DNA of 37,177 nt, from IMG/VR virus record IMGVR_UViG_3300036399_001019, positions 1-37,177 of that record; one strand, written 5' to 3'. Position 1 is the first letter of the stretch, and every line of letters begins with the position of its first letter. The notes beneath the pieces are model-generated. The model searched no databases. It worked only from the letters and a program-made list of their open reading frames with translations, and had not been told where the DNA came from. The position numbers and the translations under genes were made by a program. Below are positions 7,658-20,906 of the stretch, piece after piece. This stretch comes from a virus.

Positions 7658-8361
7658 GTTTCCCAAGCCTCGCCGGCCTCTTCCTCTTCTTGCTTTGGCT
7701 CGTTTCGTTTGAGGTAGCGATTTACAACTTCGCGCCCGTTGTATTTTGAGCACTCGGTGAGGGCTTCATGGATTAGCGTCTCGATCATCGCCGCGCATTT
7801 GTTTGGGTCGCTCTCGTCTGCTACTCGCGGGCCTGCGGTGTTTGGAATCGCCAGCATTTTTGCCCGGAGGTTTGCCAGCCCCTCCCCTACGACTTCGGTA
7901 ATGCAGGCAGCATCGTGGAGCTGTCCTTGAATTGCTTGCGATTGTGCTTCGAGGATTTCGGCGCGGGCTTTGTAAACTCTGGTTCTTTGCACTTCGTAGT
8001 CGCCGGTTTCATTGTTCTCCCATTGATTTGCTTTACGAGTTCGCAGAAAACGAATGTAATTGTGCGCCGATTGCCAGAGGTCATACGCTCCGCGACTTGT
8101 CCGTATTACAACGGCATCGGCAACGAGTTGATGGACTCTTGCCGGGGTGACTCCGAACAGCTCTGCGACCTCATCAACTCCAGCGTTGGAATATCGCCCT
8201 TCGCTTTCTTCAGCTTCTCCGTTTCTTTCCGCAAGTTCATACGCAAGTTTTGACTCTCGCGCCGTCAGGGTTTTTCCATCCTTCAGCTTTTGCAGGATGT
8301 TTTTAAATTCAGCATCACGAATTTTTTGCGCTAAGTTTTTTGCTGGCTCTTCGGTTTTCAT
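7654..8361 (-). CDS. Terminase small subunit, Nu1-like
   Basis: The 235-residue protein probably binds the packaging site and recruits the large subunit. An Arg/Lys- and Glu-rich helical N-terminus (1-55) precedes a winged-helix-type helix-turn-helix at about 61-83 (VDEVAELFGVTPARVHQLV), followed by RGAYDLWQSAHNYIRFLR and a helical region (VYKARAEILEAQSQAIQGQL). This matches the Nu1/DNA-packaging family. The start and stop overlap both neighbours as ATGA, so the glycosyltransferase, small subunit and large subunit are probably translated from one message. Confidence 0.85.
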   Translation of the reverse strand: MKTEEPAKNLAQKIRDAEFKNILQKLKDGKTLTARESKLAYELAERNGEAEESEGRYSNAGVDEVAELFGVTPARVHQLVADAVVIRTSRGAYDLWQSAHNYIRFLRTRKANQWENNETGDYEVQRTRVYKARAEILEAQSQAIQGQLHDAACITEVVGEGLANLRAKMLAIPNTAGPRVADESDPNKCAAMIETLIHEALTECSKYNGREVVNRYLKRNEPKQEEEEAGEAWET

Positions 8362-9224
8362 GGTCGTGTCTTTCTGAGTTCTTCACCGACGATGCACGGA
8401 ACTGCGTTTCTCCATTTTATGCGGTGGTGCATCCTCCGATAAACCGGACCCATATCAGCGACCTTTACACAGCTCGGCGCATACATGACGGAGTAGAATG
8501 ATTTAACGTATGTGCCAGATTCCAAATAAAGCTCGGTCATTCCGCCTGAGTTGGCTTGCGTTTGCTTCTGGCAGATTCCGATATTGGGAACGGTCAAAAA
8601 TAAAACCCCGCGCCTGCCTGCGCACGTGTAGGAATTTACGTCTTCGTTGATCCTGCCGAAAAACCGAAAATCGCAAGCGGTATTAAATACGAATGTGTTC
8701 ATTGCCTTTCGCCTTAGTTTTAACTTCTTCGCCATCGACCCATTTTTTCCGCCGATGAAATCCCCGTTCTGCGCCATCGCAATAGTTGCCGCCTTGCTCA
8801 CTTTGAGAAAATCCACCATCGCATCGAACACCCCATCCAGATTTGAGATATTTGTTTTATCGCAAAATTGAAGTTTTCCATCCGCTCGATACCGAAAATC
8901 TTGGTAATCGTCATCCAGCTCGATGAACCACTCTGCGCCCACTTCTTTCGCTACTTCAAAGCATGCGTTTCGAGCGTAAACGATGGCCCTCCGGTCTCCG
9001 AAGTTGTCGCCCTCATCAAAGGTGTCTGAGATTCCTTTTTTGTCGAAGACATGCACCTGTCCCTTGAACCGCTTTTCATATTCGCCCCGGCTTTTGTCTT
9101 CATTGTCGATCAGGATAATGACTCGGCCAGTGTAGCCTTGCCGCTTTAAGGCGCGAGCGGTGTGGACCCGATCCGGTCTCCCGTGCGTCATAATGATGGC
9201 GACGAAGTTTTTATTCTTCATCAT
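8358..9224 (-). CDS. TET-associated glycosyltransferase-like protein (TAGT)
   Basis: The 288-residue protein has the hallmarks of the phage TAGT family: IMTHGRPDRVHTARALK at the N-terminus, IILIDNEDKSRGEY, a DDD motif at about 104-106 in WFIELDDDYQDF, TIAMAQNGDFIGG, GRINEDVNSY at about 190-199, and QKQTQANSGGMTELYLESGTYVKS. Family members are thought to add sugars to modified bases in phage DNA (established by comparative genomics, chiefly next to TET/JBP dioxygenases). No TET/JBP-like gene is visible here, so the acceptor is unknown. The DNA is AT-richer than the structural genes. Two consecutive ATGs (9224, 9221) could start it. Confidence 0.8.
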   Translation of the reverse strand: MMKNKNFVAIIMTHGRPDRVHTARALKRQGYTGRVIILIDNEDKSRGEYEKRFKGQVHVFDKKGISDTFDEGDNFGDRRAIVYARNACFEVAKEVGAEWFIELDDDYQDFRYRADGKLQFCDKTNISNLDGVFDAMVDFLKVSKAATIAMAQNGDFIGGKNGSMAKKLKLRRKAMNTFVFNTACDFRFFGRINEDVNSYTCAGRRGVLFLTVPNIGICQKQTQANSGGMTELYLESGTYVKSFYSVMYAPSCVKVADMGPVYRRMHHRIKWRNAVPCIVGEELRKTRP

Positions 9225-10024: not shown

Positions 10025-10498
10025 TCAATCTCTAACCAAACTCTGCAAGTTTCCGTCTACCCGCACCCGTCCCCCCGTGGAAGAACCTACTACCCCCCCG
10101 GCTGGTGGCTGGTCGTAGGCTTTGAGTGGGTATCGATATTCGTCTGGCTTGCGGGCGCAGAGGTTGCGCACCCATTTGACCGTGAGACCATAAGCGACTG
10201 CGACTTGCGCGTGTGTCTTTCCTTCTGCTACGGCAGCACGGATGCGTTGCTGTCTTTCAAAGACGGCGATGTGGTGGCAGGTTGCCAGCGGTAAGAGCAT
10301 GCCGCAGAACTCCCTTTGCATGAGCTTTGCCTTCTCTTCGCCGATTGTCCGAACGAGATAGCTGTCCGGTGCCAGCTTTCCTTTTGGCACATACAGGCAG
10401 CGATACAGGCAGGACATGGCAAGGGCTAGCGTGGCCTCGCGTCCGATGACATCCGCAACGACTTGAGCCGTGGGTGGTAGAGGGATTTCAGAGTTCAT
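10025..10498 (-). CDS. Mor-like transcription activator
   Basis: The 157-residue protein starts at ATG 10498 behind an AAGGGGAGG ribosome site; a longer form from 10528 lacks such a site. It follows the Mor/C layout of phage Mu: a dimerisation part (VIGREATLALAMSCLYRCLYVPKGKLAPDSYLVRTIGEEKAKLM) and a helix-turn-helix near 93-113 (GKTHAQVAVAYGLTVKWVRNLC). Mor-type proteins activate middle or late phage promoters. Its place after a sigma-factor gene and before the packaging genes suits a late activator. The C-terminal tail is Pro/Gly-rich and unlike Mor. Confidence 0.7.
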   Translation of the reverse strand: MNSEIPLPPTAQVVADVIGREATLALAMSCLYRCLYVPKGKLAPDSYLVRTIGEEKAKLMQREFCGMLLPLATCHHIAVFERQQRIRAAVAEGKTHAQVAVAYGLTVKWVRNLCARKPDEYRYPLKAYDQPPAGGVVGSSTGGRVRVDGNLQSLVRD

Positions 10499-10604
10499 GC
10501 GCCTCCCCTTTGTCCTGGCGTTGCTCATCGAGGTCGATTGCCTCCATCATTTCCCTGCTGATCTCGGCAATCGAGCCGCGATGGTTTGGCTTGGCGTGTG
10601 CCAT
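10488..10604 (-). CDS. Possible small coupled protein (38 aa)
   Basis: A short reading frame from ATG 10604 (or GTG 10622) encodes an acidic helical peptide, MAHAKPNHRGSIAEISREMM and EAIDLDEQRQDKGEAHEL. It ends 10 bases inside the Mor-like gene, and its last codons contain that gene's ribosome site. It fills the gap between the sigma factor and the Mor-like activator. No family is recognised and the start is weak, so it could be non-coding leader. Confidence 0.4.
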   Translation of the reverse strand: MAHAKPNHRGSIAEISREMMEAIDLDEQRQDKGEAHEL

Positions 10605-10665
10605 GAGCGTTGCCCATAGCACGACATAACCACGGGCTGCGTGATGAGCTGTCCCGTCTTTGTAT

Positions 10666-11199
10666 TTAAGCGAGGAGATTTTCAAGGTTGAGGCTTTTCT
10701 TGAGTGTGTTAAGTGCGTTTCGGCGAAGGGTTCGGGTTTGGCTGAGAGTGAGGCCTTTTTGTTCCGCGATAGTTTTGAGAGGCAGGTTTTTGAAAAAACT
10801 GAGGCTGATGATTTCCTTTTGAATTTCTGGCAGTTGCTCAATGTGCTTCCGGACTTCGCGCCGGTTTTCCTTTAATGACGGCACGAGAGAGCCTTCCGAG
10901 TCGTTATTTTTTTCAAATAGGGCGACTCGACGCCTCCGAGTGCGCAGGAGGTCAAAGGCCGCTCTGCGAGCGATGCCGATAAGCCACGGCATAACCGGCG
11001 ACCCGGCGCGGAATGTTCCGGCCTTCTGCCATACCTTGAGCATGGCGGTCTGGAATATGTCACCGGCATCGTCAGCCGGGACGATTGAGGCGATGATGCG
11101 CGTGACCTCTGGCTGAGTGAGGGTGAACAGCTCGGCCATCGCGTCTTGGTCGCCGGTGGCGATGCGTTGAAGGCAGGATGTCATTGCGTCCTCGCTCAT
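10666..11199 (-). CDS. Phage-encoded ECF-type RNA polymerase sigma factor
   Basis: The 177-residue protein shows the two conserved regions of an extracytoplasmic-function sigma factor. Region 2 covers about 14-90 (DQDAMAELFTLTQPEV, DAGDIFQTAMLKVWQKAGTF, PWLIGIARRAAFDLLRTRRRR). Region 4 covers about 122-172 (IEQLPEIQKEIISLSF, NLPLKTIAEQKGLTLSQTRT). Regions 1 and 3 are absent, as in ECF factors. I chose ATG 11199, which overlaps the previous stop as ATGA and has GGAAGGA upstream; ATG 11217 is possible. Lying last in the early operon, just before a Mor-like activator, it probably redirects host polymerase to late promoters. Confidence 0.85.
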   Translation of the reverse strand: MSEDAMTSCLQRIATGDQDAMAELFTLTQPEVTRIIASIVPADDAGDIFQTAMLKVWQKAGTFRAGSPVMPWLIGIARRAAFDLLRTRRRRVALFEKNNDSEGSLVPSLKENRREVRKHIEQLPEIQKEIISLSFFKNLPLKTIAEQKGLTLSQTRTLRRNALNTLKKSLNLENLLA

Positions 11200-11525
11200 T
11201 TCTTTAGTTCCTTCCATCGTTTCAATGTGTCTGCAATTCTTTCAGATGTTTCGGTTAATAATGCAGAATCGTGCGATCCGAGGCAGTGTGAGGCGATAAC
11301 GGCCAGATCGTATGCAACGGCCCGCGCCTCGTCTCGTTCGTGCCTTGCCTGCGCCAAAAGCTCCCACGCCTCCACCTCGCACTTGTAGTTGTGAATTGCA
11401 GTAAGCGCCTCATCCCTCTCCAAACAGCAAGCCAACTCCAAAAACTCCTCCAAGTGGATGAAGTTGCCGGGGTTTTCAGCCAGCAGCCGTTTGTAAAGAG
11501 CGTCCGTCTCAGGCGTGTCACTCAT
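11196..11525 (-). CDS. MSDTPETD-type phage hypothetical protein (109 aa)
   Basis: The start (MSDTPETDALYKRL) and the middle part (FIHLEEFLELACCLERDEALTA) match a common family of small phage proteins of the form MSDTPRTD...LERELA. No function is known for it. The rest is helical and charged (ELLAQARHERDEARAVAYDLA). Both ends overlap neighbours as ATGA, placing it firmly in the early operon. Confidence 0.75.
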   Translation of the reverse strand: MSDTPETDALYKRLLAENPGNFIHLEEFLELACCLERDEALTAIHNYKCEVEAWELLAQARHERDEARAVAYDLAVIASHCLGSHDSALLTETSERIADTLKRWKELKK

Positions 11526-14705: not shown

Positions 14706-15515
14706 TTACTTAGCCCAGCGCGGCAGGGTGATGGTTTCGATCTCCTGCGAGTAGGCAGGCCAGATTCCCGACTCCTGGCATTGCTCCAAGAGGTCGAGTT
14801 GCCGGGTGTTCTTTTCCCGTCCGAGGGCGATGCTTTCGGCGTCGAGGCAGTAAACCCCGACCGCATAAGGCGCGACTTTTTCCACCGCGATGAACAGGAA
14901 GAAACTCGCTTCCAGAAGGTCCATGTAATACGCCGCCTGTTGAGCATAGCCAAAAGCCGCGATGGATTTTGCAAAGCCTTCCGGTGATGCGTCCTCCGTG
15001 GTCTTGATGTCGCCGATGGTAGTCGCCCCCTGTGAGTCCACGGCTACGATGTCCAAACGCCCCTTGAGCAAAAGCCCCTCCGGGTTGTTCCGAACGATGC
15101 GCCGGAAAACGGACACCTCCCGCTTGGCTTCGCCAAGGATCGCCGCCGCTGCGGGGTGGGATGCCACCGATACCGCCGCGCCCTTGAGCGCCTCGTTTTG
15201 CTCTGCTGATATGATCGGCAGCGTTTGCGCGTCCCTCCATGCTTTGCCCTCTTTGGTGGTGAAGTTCATTCCCTCCGGGCGCACCGCAAACGACCCCTCC
15301 AACCTGTGCGGCTCCAATGCCGCACGGTGGAGAAGCGTTCCGAATACCATGGCGGGAGTCGGTTCGCTCTTTGGCTGCGTGAGTTGCGCGAGGTAATGCG
15401 CAGGGCTTTTCCCCATTGATTTCAGGGCCGAAATGTTGACGCCTGTGGCTGCGCGGTAGGTATCCTCCGCAAGGTCGAAATAAACCCCCTCCGCTCCGTC
15501 TTGGAAGGCGCTCAT
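14706..15515 (-). CDS. RecE-like exonuclease (PD-(D/E)XK)
   Basis: The 269-residue protein matches the nuclease domain of exodeoxyribonuclease VIII. It contains NISALKSMGKSPAHYLAQL and TPAMVFGTLLHRAALEP, in which the His is expected to help bind metal. The catalytic core is LLLKGRLDIVAVD followed by TTIGDIKTTEDAS, giving the D...D-x-K arrangement, and FGYAQQAAYYMDLLEA follows. It resects double-strand ends 5' to 3' so that the neighbouring RecT-type protein can anneal strands. The two genes overlap by 4 bases. Confidence 0.9.
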   Translation of the reverse strand: MSAFQDGAEGVYFDLAEDTYRAATGVNISALKSMGKSPAHYLAQLTQPKSEPTPAMVFGTLLHRAALEPHRLEGSFAVRPEGMNFTTKEGKAWRDAQTLPIISAEQNEALKGAAVSVASHPAAAAILGEAKREVSVFRRIVRNNPEGLLLKGRLDIVAVDSQGATTIGDIKTTEDASPEGFAKSIAAFGYAQQAAYYMDLLEASFFLFIAVEKVAPYAVGVYCLDAESIALGREKNTRQLDLLEQCQESGIWPAYSQEIETITLPRWAK

Positions 15516-17567: not shown

Positions 17568-17704
17568 AATTTGGTTGGTGTGACATGCGCGGCTTGAACG
17601 CCGTGCTTTTGAAAAAACTTGATGCGGGCATCCCCGAACCCGCAGGCGCGGATCGTGTCGGTGATGTCGCCTGACTGGCAGAGGTAGAGGCGATGGGATT
17701 TCAT
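17564..17704 (-). CDS. Very small hypothetical protein (46 aa)
   Basis: The frame starts with ATG 17704, overlapping the excisionase-like stop, and ends with TGA overlapping the next ATG. It encodes MKSHRLYLCQSGDITDTIRA and CGFGDARIKFFQKHGVQAAH. The position mirrors that of the integrase after the second excisionase-like gene, which also begins MK after an identical ...RRPxK stop. No function is known. Confidence 0.6.
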   Translation of the reverse strand: MKSHRLYLCQSGDITDTIRACGFGDARIKFFQKHGVQAAHVTPTKL

Positions 17705-17904
17705 TTCGCGGGCCTCCGGTTCGATGTCGCGCCGATCTGGTCAGACAACCATTGGCGGAAAGGCTCCTCAAAAATCCTCCAGCCTCCACGGTCCGAAAGC
17801 GGTTTGCAGGCCGAGAAGGTTCCGCGCCGAATATGGCGGAGAATTGTCTCGGTGTGCGCTCCGGTTTCCTCGGCGGCTTGCTTCACGGTGAGCGTGCCTT
17901 TCAT
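17701..17904 (-). CDS. Excisionase-like DNA-binding protein, early copy (67 aa)
   Basis: MKGTLTVKQAAEETGAHTET, ILRHIRRGTFSACKPL, RGGWRIFEEPFRQWLSDQIG form a MerR/Xis-type winged helix: helix-turn-helix at about 6-26, wing with GGWRIF, then a helix with FRQWL. It shares about 42 of 67 residues with the protein encoded at 20199-20402, upstream of the integrase. As second gene of the early operon it may act as early regulator or as the lytic-phase recombination directionality factor. Confidence 0.75.
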   Translation of the reverse strand: MKGTLTVKQAAEETGAHTETILRHIRRGTFSACKPLSDRGGWRIFEEPFRQWLSDQIGATSNRRPAK

Positions 17905-18071
17905 TTCGAGGCCCTCCGCTTGTTGCTTTTGGCCTCGCTCGCCATTTTTTCCCGAAGTGCTGCCGCAATCAGTCTGCTGACAGGGGTGCCAAGCACTTCA
18001 CTTTTCTCCTTCAGATACTCCATGAGGTTTGAAGGAAGACTTACGCTCGTTCTCTCGTATGCAGTGTGCAT
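17901..18071 (-). CDS. RHH (CopG-like) repressor candidate (56 aa)
   Basis: MHTAYERTSVSLPSNLMEYL and KEKSEVLGTPVSRLIAAALR fit the ribbon-helix-helix layout: a short strand (RTSVSLP), helix A (SNLMEYLKEKSEVLG), turn at TPVS, then helix B. A basic tail (KSNKRRASK) follows. It is the first gene of the leftward operon, 8 bases past a 22-bp palindrome that overlaps its promoter, and its stop overlaps the next start (ATGA). It probably represses its own operon and perhaps the divergent gene. Confidence 0.75.
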   Translation of the reverse strand: MHTAYERTSVSLPSNLMEYLKEKSEVLGTPVSRLIAAALREKMASEAKSNKRRASK

Positions 18072-18079
18072 GGCTCATA

Positions 18080-18101
18080 CCGATATGATCGATCATATCG
18101 G
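18080..18101. promoter_or_regulatory. 22-bp perfect palindromic operator
   Basis: Half-sites GATATGAT and ATCATATC meet around a central CG, with CC and GG at the outer ends; all 22 bases are symmetric. It lies between the promoter -35 and the start codon of the RHH gene at 17901-18071. The same half-site recurs beside the divergent RHH gene (18225-18253). Confidence 0.85.
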
Positions 18102-18120
18102 CGTGCAAGAAAATTTCCAA
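18092..18120 (-). promoter_or_regulatory. Early leftward promoter overlapped by the operator
   Basis: On the minus strand TTGGAA (18120-18115) and TATGAT (18097-18092) are separated by 17 bases, a good sigma-70-type pair. The -10 lies entirely within the palindrome, so operator binding would block polymerase. Transcription would start about 15 bases before the RHH gene. Confidence 0.65.
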
Positions 18121-18224
18121 AAACGGGTCAATAAGTAGATCACCCCACATCAAGAAAACTCTTGACACGCCCATAAACACTAAGTCTGCGGGCGAAAAAA
18201 AATTTTAATGGTCGTTTGATTTTT

Positions 18225-18253
18225 TCATATCCGGTGTTACTGATATGATATGA
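18225..18253. promoter_or_regulatory. Second operator region with three half-sites
   Basis: TCATATC at 18225-18231 and two overlapping GATATGA copies at 18242-18248 and 18247-18253 repeat the half-site of the 18080 palindrome. The last copy covers the ATG of the plus-strand RHH gene. No convincing -35/-10 pair for that gene was seen. Confidence 0.65.
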
Positions 18254-18576
18254 GCACCAAAGAAAAATTCCCTCGAATCACCATCACATTGCCGCCAGAC
18301 CTACTGTGTTGGGTCAAAGAAAAAGAGGCCAGTCTGAACGCTAAAGATCGCCGCATGAAAACCTCTGTAAGCGCCATCATTGCGGATGCCGTTGATGAAA
18401 TGAAAAAGCGCGAAGAACTCAGCCAAGCCATGCCCGACATGCCCCGCTACCGTCTCAATGAAGACCCCCCTACGCCCCAGGACACATTGATCCGGCCCTC
18501 CACCGAGACCTTAGATGGTGGATTATCAACAGCTACGACGGCCCGCTACCAGAAGGGTGGACGGCGCAAGTCATAG
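18250..18576 (+). CDS. Divergent RHH-type regulator (108 aa)
   Basis: This is the only confident plus-strand gene. Residues 8-58 follow the ribbon-helix-helix layout: strand PRITITLPPD, helix LLCWVKEKEASLNAKDRRMK, a TSVSAIIADAVDEMKKREEL second helix. A flexible Pro/Thr-rich tail follows (RYRLNEDPPTPQDTLIRPST). It is divergent from the leftward operon and shares operator half-sites with it, as CI and Cro do in lambda. I infer that it is the lysogeny-side regulator. There is no clear ribosome site; the start overlaps a half-site. Confidence 0.75.
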   Translation: MSTKEKFPRITITLPPDLLCWVKEKEASLNAKDRRMKTSVSAIIADAVDEMKKREELSQAMPDMPRYRLNEDPPTPQDTLIRPSTETLDGGLSTATTARYQKGGRRKS

Positions 18577-18711
18577 ACCTGACGGGGGAATAAAGCCTAC
18601 CAATCCGCACTCAGACCCGCATGATTGCAGGTTTTGGAAGCGATGTATTATTGCGATCTGTTCGCGCCTAATCTGAGGTGCAAGTCGGCAGCTTTGCTCC
18701 AAGTTGATTTT

Positions 18712-19176: not shown

Positions 19177-20202
19177 TCAAACCGCCCACCAAGCCCGCCA
19201 ATCTGCACGGCGCGAAGGAACGGCATAGACTCGCTTGACCATTGCTGTCGTCGAATGCCCAAGCTGGTGCGCAGTCTTGCCAGCGTCCTGCCCACGCCCC
19301 AGGTGATAGGTGGCGAACGAATGCCGCAGGGCGTTTTCTGGAAACTGCGACCACGGCACCTTGCCCGCCTCGTGTAGCCTCACAATGAGCGCCTGACGCT
19401 CTGCGTAAATCCGCAGAGAGGCCGGGGGCAGAATCAGTCCCTTCTTTTTATCATCTTGAAAGAACGCCGCCCTTCGCGTCAGCGGCTCGGTTAAATCAAC
19501 GATACGCTCTGGCAGTCCGCTGGATTGCTTGGAAACCTCCCGCCTGATCTCGATCTCTCCCCTCGCGGCGTCAATATCTTCCCAGCGCATCCGCCTGACC
19601 TCGATAGACCGCAGCCCCGCAAACCCTCCCAGGAGAAACCACGCCCGCAGCTCGTCGCTCATCTCCTCGGCCAAGATCGTCGCCATTTCCCCGGCTGTGA
19701 CAAGCGACCGCTTCGCCTCGGCCTTTGGCGCTCGTATCCTCCGCAGCGGATTCCGGTCGATAAGCTCCATATCCACACACCATGCGAAAAACCCGCTCGC
19801 GTAGCGGTGCCATCCCGCCCGTGTGGTCGGTGATCCTTCGATGCCGTCAAACCATTTTCCAGCCTTGATCGGCGTCACATTCGCCACCGGCCCGTCGAAC
19901 TCCTCCAGCAACTTGCCGCAAACCCGCTCGATTTTGTCTTTATGAGCCTGTGAAGACTTGGATTTGGTCGCAACATAATCCCTCACCGCAGATTTCATCG
20001 AAAGCCCTCCCTGATCCTTTTCCCGCAGCCCCTGCGTCCCTGTCTTTTGCAACGCCTCTAAAAGAGCAGGCCCCGCCGCCCATGCCTCCGCCTCCGTTTT
20101 GAAAAACCGCTTGATCCTGCTGCCCGACACCGACGCCGGAATCTCCAGTTTCCAAGTGCCGGGTCGTGCCGTGTGCTGGGTAACAAAGTATCGGGCTTTC
20201 AT
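19177..20202 (-). CDS. int: Tyrosine-recombinase integrase
   Basis: The 341-residue integrase starts at ATG 20202, overlapping the excisionase-like stop as ATGA. A small N-terminal arm-binding part (TWKLEIPASVSGSRIKRFFK) precedes a core-binding helical domain (70-160). The catalytic domain shows R198 (FAGLRSIEVRRMRW), K225, R293 within NALRHSFATYHL, H316 in LGHST and nucleophile Y326 in VYAV. Asn290 stands where most family members have the first His of the H-x-x-R box. It should recombine attP (20539-20594) with a host tRNA-Leu gene. Confidence 0.92.
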   Translation of the reverse strand: MKARYFVTQHTARPGTWKLEIPASVSGSRIKRFFKTEAEAWAAGPALLEALQKTGTQGLREKDQGGLSMKSAVRDYVATKSKSSQAHKDKIERVCGKLLEEFDGPVANVTPIKAGKWFDGIEGSPTTRAGWHRYASGFFAWCVDMELIDRNPLRRIRAPKAEAKRSLVTAGEMATILAEEMSDELRAWFLLGGFAGLRSIEVRRMRWEDIDAARGEIEIRREVSKQSSGLPERIVDLTEPLTRRAAFFQDDKKKGLILPPASLRIYAERQALIVRLHEAGKVPWSQFPENALRHSFATYHLGRGQDAGKTAHQLGHSTTAMVKRVYAVPSRRADWRAWWAV

Positions 20203-20402
20203 TTCGAGGGCCTTTTGTTCGAGGTCTCGCCGATCCGGCCCGCCCACCATTGGTTGAAGGACTCAGTAAAAATCCGCCACCCGCCACGATTCCCGAGTGG
20301 CTTGCAGGCCGAGAACGAGCCTTTGTAAATGTGCATCTTGATCGTCCAAGGGCATGCCCCGGTTAGCTCGCAGGCCTCCTTAATGGTGATGGTGCCTTTC
20401 AT
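20199..20402 (-). CDS. Excisionase-like protein upstream of integrase (67 aa)
   Basis: MKGTITIKEACELTGACPWT, IKMHIYKGSFSACKPL and RGGWRIFTESFNQWWAGRIG form a MerR/Xis-type winged helix. The protein is about 63% identical to the early-operon protein at 17701-17904. ATG 20402 overlaps the first of the TGTTACCC arm-type repeats, so binding there could also control its own expression. It probably bends attachment DNA to set recombination direction. A start at 20411 (MGN) is also possible. Confidence 0.8.
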   Translation of the reverse strand: MKGTITIKEACELTGACPWTIKMHIYKGSFSACKPLGNRGGWRIFTESFNQWWAGRIGETSNKRPSK

Positions 20403-20429
20403 GTTACCCAACTGTTACCCGTGTTACCC
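20402..20429 (+). repeat. attP arm-type sites, three direct TGTTACCC repeats
   Basis: TGTTACCC occurs at 20402-20409, 20413-20420 and 20422-20429, all in the same orientation with periods of 11 and 9 bases (about one helical turn). Two more copies lie on the far side of the tRNA-like core at 20631-20648. This matches the layout of integrase arm-binding sites. Confidence 0.75.
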
Positions 20430-20630: not shown

Positions 20631-20648
20631 TGTTACCCGCTGTTACCC
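20631..20648 (+). repeat. attP arm-type sites, two direct TGTTACCC repeats
   Basis: Exact copies lie at 20631-20638 and 20641-20648, in the same orientation as the three copies on the other side of the core. The second overlaps the stop codon of the 20643-20906 gene. Confidence 0.75.
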
Positions 20649-20906
20649 GATTAAACGGATTTCGCCTTTTTGAATATCGCAAACGACCTCGTATTGTTTC
20701 CCGCCTCCCCCGGCTGGTAGTAGCGACTCGATGAACTTCCCTCGGCTCATCGTGCCGCGCTGGCGGTCGAGCTTGGCCCAGCTTTCGGGCTGCATGGAGA
20801 CGCTGCGCGTCACGGCGGTTCGGCCTTTGGCGTTGGCTGACTTCTTGCCTTGCGGGCGACCCGCTCCTTTGCGCGGGCCGCCGTGGGTGGTTTTTTTATC
20901 AAGCAT
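20643..20906 (-). CDS. Basic RHH-like phage protein (87 aa)
   Basis: A basic, Gly-rich N-terminus (KKTTHGGPRKGAGRPQGKKS) leads to an RHH-like segment (AVTRSVSMQPESWAKLDRQR then MSRGKFIESLL). A short C-terminal strand pair (YEVVCDIQKGEIRLIG) follows. The GGPRKGAGRP start is common in small phage and plasmid DNA-binding proteins. The stop lies inside an attP arm site. It may regulate int/xis or take part in the intasome; this is inference. Confidence 0.65.
   Translation of the reverse strand: MLDKKTTHGGPRKGAGRPQGKKSANAKGRTAVTRSVSMQPESWAKLDRQRGTMSRGKFIESLLPAGGGGKQYEVVCDIQKGEIRLIG

Follow-up and report, generated by a model that had tools for sequence, protein, structure and literature searches.

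A divergent pair of paralogous ribbon-helix-helix proteins as a probable primary immunity cassette in uncultured temperate phages

The immunity regions of lambdoid phages carry divergent repressor and Cro genes (cI/cro) with shared operators, and among the heteroimmune phages lambda, 434 and 21 they are exchanged as a unit, the operators moving together with both DNA-binding domains. A different arrangement is found in the immI region of phage P22, where divergent ribbon-helix-helix (RHH) genes of 83 codons and 53 amino acids lie 90 bp apart with the Arc/Mnt operators between them, Mnt acting in lysogeny and Arc in lytic growth (PMC7549136, PMC8022706). RHH control of lysogeny as such is already known from SSV1, whose RHH protein F55 is the main lysogeny repressor and binds tandem repeats at early promoters (PMC5569661). 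The RHH protein AvtR of AFV6 controls its own gene and that of gp30, predicted to be another RHH protein, with about 100 nt protected between the promoters (PMC5569661). In some Pf prophages, an Arc-family gene replaces repressor C in the regulatory region (PMC7549136).

The window analyzed here is the whole of a 37,177 bp IMG/VR virus record, and is probably a complete circular map because it has a 12-bp terminal repeat and a 600-codon frame that crosses the joined ends. Nearly all of its genes point leftward, with one clear rightward gene at 18250-18576. The sequence-only reading of this DNA had described divergent RHH proteins of 56 and 108 residues, and both open reading frames are present: the small RHH protein (17901-18071, minus strand), encoded by the first gene of the leftward early operon, and the large RHH protein (18250-18576, plus strand), encoded by the single rightward gene. 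We infer a Cro-like role for the small protein and a CI-like role for the large one.

Like P22 immI, the locus has two divergent RHH genes with operators, here predicted, in the short region between them. Such an RHH-versus-RHH design had been called unusual; mnt/arc is a close anatomical precedent, in which the pair is a secondary module. The P22 region lies beside immC with its c2 repressor, whereas no CI/c2-type repressor was detected here; P22 arc leads to ant, whereas an HTH_17 gene, not an antirepressor gene, follows the small RHH gene; and the present pair is exchanged as a block. In sequence the cassette proteins resemble Arc and Mnt no more than the common fold implies (hhalign 26% and 15%). 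SSV1 F55 is comparable as an RHH lysogeny regulator, but it is a single protein of an archaeal virus without an opposing RHH partner, and AvtR of the lipothrixvirus AFV6 differs in being a tandem RHH protein, with no lysogeny switch or specificity-block exchange reported for that system (PMC5569661). The Pf prophages also offer an Arc-type protein in a temperate phage lacking the usual repressor, but these are filamentous phages with a single such gene of putative function. Lambdoid regulators, in turn, are helix-turn-helix proteins whose CI carries an S24 autoprotease; the pair described here is RHH with no protease domain found, and so lacks the lambda-type combination. In the best reading of these comparisons, the cassette would work like cI/cro and resembles mnt/arc, and by sequence it is a member of neither beyond the RHH fold.

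Searches of IMG/VR that started from either protein, or from an alignment of its family, found the same divergent pair in more than 60 contigs. In loci read from the small gene, the divergent upstream neighbor is RHH-like and normally lies 157-188 bp away, and in the loci examined the small protein has 50-57 and the large protein 83-116 amino acids. The set analyzed comprises 44 distinct small and 54 distinct large proteins, and the pairs were sorted by protein and operator sequence into seven groups: A (which includes the window), B, C, D, E, F and H. Locus L014 was left out as a possible frameshifted relative; it keeps the large-protein tail, its RHH part looks frameshifted, and the RHH-like gene on its other side is a different one. 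No relatives of the pair were found among 50,697 phage records (INPHARED) and 72,556 plasmids (PLSDB), searched with either protein and with DNA, or among 84,980 genomes of GTDB species, scanned by pattern with the small-RHH profile. The lysogeny part of our reading rests on the integrase, because that pattern-based scan of 84,980 genomes found no prophage carrying the cassette. A scan of genomes with the portal protein found relatives of only 39%, in Clostridia and Gastranaerophilales bins, and the best match of the integrase is Akkermansia phage Chantilly, which is only 25% identical and has its own annotated repressor.

Membership in the RHH (CopG/Arc/MetJ) fold is indicated for the small protein by Pfam and a structure model, and for the large protein by profile homology and a model. 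The small protein scores 22.9 bits against Pfam RHH_1 (cut-off 20.5) and its PHROG match is to Arc-like repressors; the large protein by itself falls below the Pfam cut-off at 15.5 bits. By profile comparison the two are paralogues, because their family profiles align at E 3.6e-12 (hhalign, 97.6%). The AlphaFold model of the small protein (pLDDT 82) has an RHH fold and matches CopG, Arc and CopASO, whereas in the large protein an N-terminal RHH domain (about residues 1-60) is followed by a disordered tail, and residues of about 8-62 match ParD2, TraM and NikR. In both models the helix-helix part is of good confidence and the strand is unassigned in the monomers. Mnt does not appear in the structure comparison listing, which therefore says nothing on likeness to Mnt.

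The region between the genes contains a perfect 22-bp palindrome, CCGATATGATCGATCATATCGG (18080-18101), as had been claimed from the sequence; the second-longest palindrome in the window is 14 bp. It is made of the adjoining subsites GATATGATC and GATCATATC with flanking CC/GG. In the closest relatives the palindrome is only 14-22 bp long or is broken, and as a conserved operator it was dropped, being broken in L037 and L053. The predicted conserved operator unit is the array of 9-bp subsites, of the form GNT-NNN-ANC, and not the palindrome. At the small gene these subsites occupy offsets 0/1 and 18-20, with a third at 9/10 in some loci, and at the large gene one subsite lies 17-20 bp before the ATG. 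The predicted left operator of the window (18073-18099) consists of the contiguous subsites GCTCATACC, GATATGATC and GATCATATC at offsets 1, 10 and 19 from the small start codon, which are also occupied in other specificity groups. The predicted right operator region (18224-18250) holds TTCATATCC, GGTGTTACT, which overlaps the predicted -10, and GATATGATA in a 9-bp register. Three half-sites had been reported at the start of the rightward gene, but an exact copy is present only once (18242-18249), along with the imperfect GATATGAG overlapping it and an inverted CATATCC at 18226. The sequence GATATGAT occurs four times in 37 kb against 0.59 expected, three of the copies inside the interval 17901-18576. 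In four related phages (G002, G014, G001 and G019) every exact copy of the group-specific 8-9-mer tested falls within the cassette; the window has one extra copy outside, at 15208.

Subsite sequence differs by group: groups H and B have GGTGCTACC/T, groups D and E have GGTCATACC or GGTATTACC, and group A has GATCATATC. Groups C and F conform poorly to the subsite rule. The operators on the two sides co-vary, matching better within than between groups (p=0.0006 in a permutation test over just seven groups, which are evolutionarily non-independent), and the right-hand subsites, which double as the -10, are less distinctive. The ribbon of the small protein is nearly constant across groups, whereas the outward-facing residues of the large protein follow the subsite: the triple KNS occurs with GGTGCTACC, K(S/T)S mostly with GGTCATACC/GGTATTACC, and RTT with GATCATATC. 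This comparison, which is confounded by relatedness and includes a KSS ribbon with a different subsite in group C, hints that it is the large protein that recognizes the variable positions of the subsite.

Promoters were predicted from an alignment of 53 distinct intergenic regions. On the leftward side, nearly all relatives retain a TTG some 37 nt ahead of the start codon, and the promoter is probably TTGCAC (-35, 18108-18103), a 17 bp spacer and TATCGG (-10, 18085-18080), ending 8 nt before the ATG (18080-18108, minus strand). The leftward promoter proposed previously, TTGGAA-17-TATGAT (18120-18092), does match the sigma-70 consensus formally, but its TTGGAA is absent from the relatives. The predicted rightward promoter (18216-18243, plus strand) is TTGATT, 16 bp, TACTGA, 6 nt before the ATG; across relatives it takes the form TTGNNN-16/17-TAC(T/C)NN, ending 6-9 nt before the ATG, and would produce a leaderless mRNA. 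Taken together, the two predicted promoters would imply very short or absent leaders. Between them lies a central core (18135-18205), a GTGATCACCCC-like element followed by TTGACA...GCGGGCGAAAA, which is conserved across groups with different operators and contains no recognizable promoter or terminator; its TTGACA was considered as a promoter and rejected for want of a fitting -10.

The cassette is also found as a discrete block in otherwise different genomes. Positions 17900-18583, almost exactly the interval 17901-18576, are 93.5% identical to phage G002 (42 kb, 127-bp terminal repeats), whereas only 5.9% of the DNA of the window and G002 is common to both. The reverse case, flanks about 82-98% identical around unalignable cassettes in which the central core alone still aligns, is seen in six locus pairs (L034/L083, L051/L094, L019/L100, L042/L065, L039/L084 and L044/L058). 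A strict two-flank test is passed by only seven locus pairs, of which three have different cassettes, in two group combinations (A/B and D/H). Because the breakpoints sit inside both genes, in the last bases (3′ end) of the small one and near codon 55-60 of the large one, an exchange carries the operators along with both DNA-binding domains. Large-protein tails stay with the flanks, so that the window and L007, and likewise L100 and L019, share tails and not DNA-binding domains. Exchange of a specificity block with its operators, as seen here, is a feature of primary immunity regions, and uncultured temperate phages appear to swap the two-RHH cassette as one block.

The surrounding genes have the layout of such a region as well, since divergent regulators heading an early operon near an integrase are another of its features. 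The next gene of the leftward operon encodes an HTH_17 excisionase-like protein (17701-17904, minus strand) and overlaps the small RHH stop codon (ATGA); RecT, a PDDEXK nuclease, RusA and replication genes follow. A tyrosine integrase (19177-20250, minus strand) lies 0.6 kb beyond the large RHH gene, and by coordinate arithmetic each integrase found among the long contigs (18/21) is within about 1.5 kb of the cassette. The statement that no CI-like or LexA-type protein is visible in the window held up, both among the scanned proteins and in a six-frame search of the whole window for CI-like and S24 proteins. In the 21 long contigs, neither Peptidase_S24 nor HTH_3 above the cut-off was found (0/21 each), and the sub-cut-off HTH_3 hits in relatives were by eye of TerS, Xis and ParB type; the search covers the families tested, and a repressor of another fold could escape it.

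We estimate a probability of about 0.78 that the interval 17901-18576 serves a temperate phage as its primary immunity (lysis-lysogeny) cassette and consists of two opposing paralogous RHH repressors with their operators between them. The divergent RHH-versus-RHH switch suggested from the sequence is supported by recurrence of the pair, block exchange and replacement, operator co-variation, nearby integrases and the lack of a detected CI/LexA-type protein. In a prophage, the large RHH protein would be made from a promoter overlapping its own start codon. By occupying 9-bp subsites (GNT-NNN-ANC) that span the -35/-10 region of the leftward promoter, it would shut off the small RHH gene together with the early operon that follows (HTH_17, RecT, nuclease and replication genes). 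Once infection or induction has taken place, the small RHH protein, as the first product of the operon, would repress the large RHH gene in a Cro-like manner through the subsites at the rightward promoter. Specificity groups would be set by operator sequence and ribbon residues, and recombination that swaps the whole block would move a phage to another immunity group; the cassette probably decides whether the phage remains dormant and to which relatives it is immune. Induction without a LexA-type autoprotease might proceed by proteolysis of the disordered tail or through an antirepressor. It is also conceivable, if rather unlikely, that the two paralogues form mixed dimers and that the outcome depends on the balance between homodimers and heterodimers on shared 9-bp subsites, with no separate competing repressors; the lysis-lysogeny switch would then be of a new type, and its RHH recognition code could be read.

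The anatomy shared with mnt/arc would suit a secondary immunity module of the P22 immI type, in which the pair controls an antirepressor or accessory function and an unrecognized repressor elsewhere maintains lysogeny. We regard this as improbable: the small RHH gene heads the early operon and does not lead to an ant gene, the scanned proteins include nothing ant-like, no CI, S24 or HTH_3 repressor was detected, and the pair adjoins the integrase, the usual place of primary immunity. Another reading is that the block moved like other phage modules and that immunity specificity was not under selection; this would agree with the mosaicism seen elsewhere, as G002 and G014 also differ outside the cassette (25% of the genome unaligned). 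Recurrent breakpoints that keep the operators with both DNA-binding domains, and the co-variation of the operators, make this explanation quite improbable.

Two further readings draw on the structural neighbors and were rejected as main readings. CopG is among the top structural matches of the small protein and also matches the large one weakly by profile, which would fit a CopG/plasmid-type copy-number or autoregulatory module in a phage-plasmid with no role as immunity determinant. There is only a slight chance of this, as no plasmid record matches, an integrase is present in most long contigs, no replication initiator adjoins the pair, and block exchange that repeatedly moves both DNA-binding domains along with their operators is not expected from copy control by itself. 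Least probable of all is a toxin-antitoxin remnant with one or both proteins as antitoxins; antitoxins are many of the RHH structural neighbors and there is weak, sub-cut-off similarity to CopG/BrnA antitoxins, but the two genes diverge from separate predicted promoters, both proteins have the RHH domain, and no toxin-like gene follows either of them.

If the primary immunity reading is right, an uncultured family of temperate phages decides between lysis and lysogeny using a pair of RHH paralogues, with neither a CI-type repressor nor a LexA-type protease, and the mnt/arc arrangement moves from a secondary role to the main switch. It would also raise the question of what induces the prophage if RecA-driven autocleavage is not available to it. 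With over 50 distinct pairs whose operators match, falling into about seven specificity groups, these phages offer a natural data set for a possible RHH recognition code and for the evolution of heteroimmunity.

Several other features of these genomes were recorded. A second HTH_17 excisionase-like gene (20199-20411) overlaps the start of the integrase gene and is in part about 76% identical in DNA to the one behind the cassette. On the right flank, as noted at L039 and L067, accessory genes between the large RHH gene and the integrase vary by phage (for example a small lipoprotein-like ORF), and are possible exclusion genes. An 87-aa protein (20643-20906) is RHH-like in its middle by eye, without a Pfam match. 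An Rfam abiF RNA match of 39.9 bits (2566-2602) lies within a repeat-like stretch of the tail region and may be a chance or repeat hit. In the region 10025-11217, a sigma-70-family factor (10666-11217) is followed by a Mor-like late transcription activator (10025-10528). A TET-associated glycosyltransferase (TAGT, 8358-9224, E 1.8e-31) adjoins a ParB-like gene, which suggests glycosylated modified bases.
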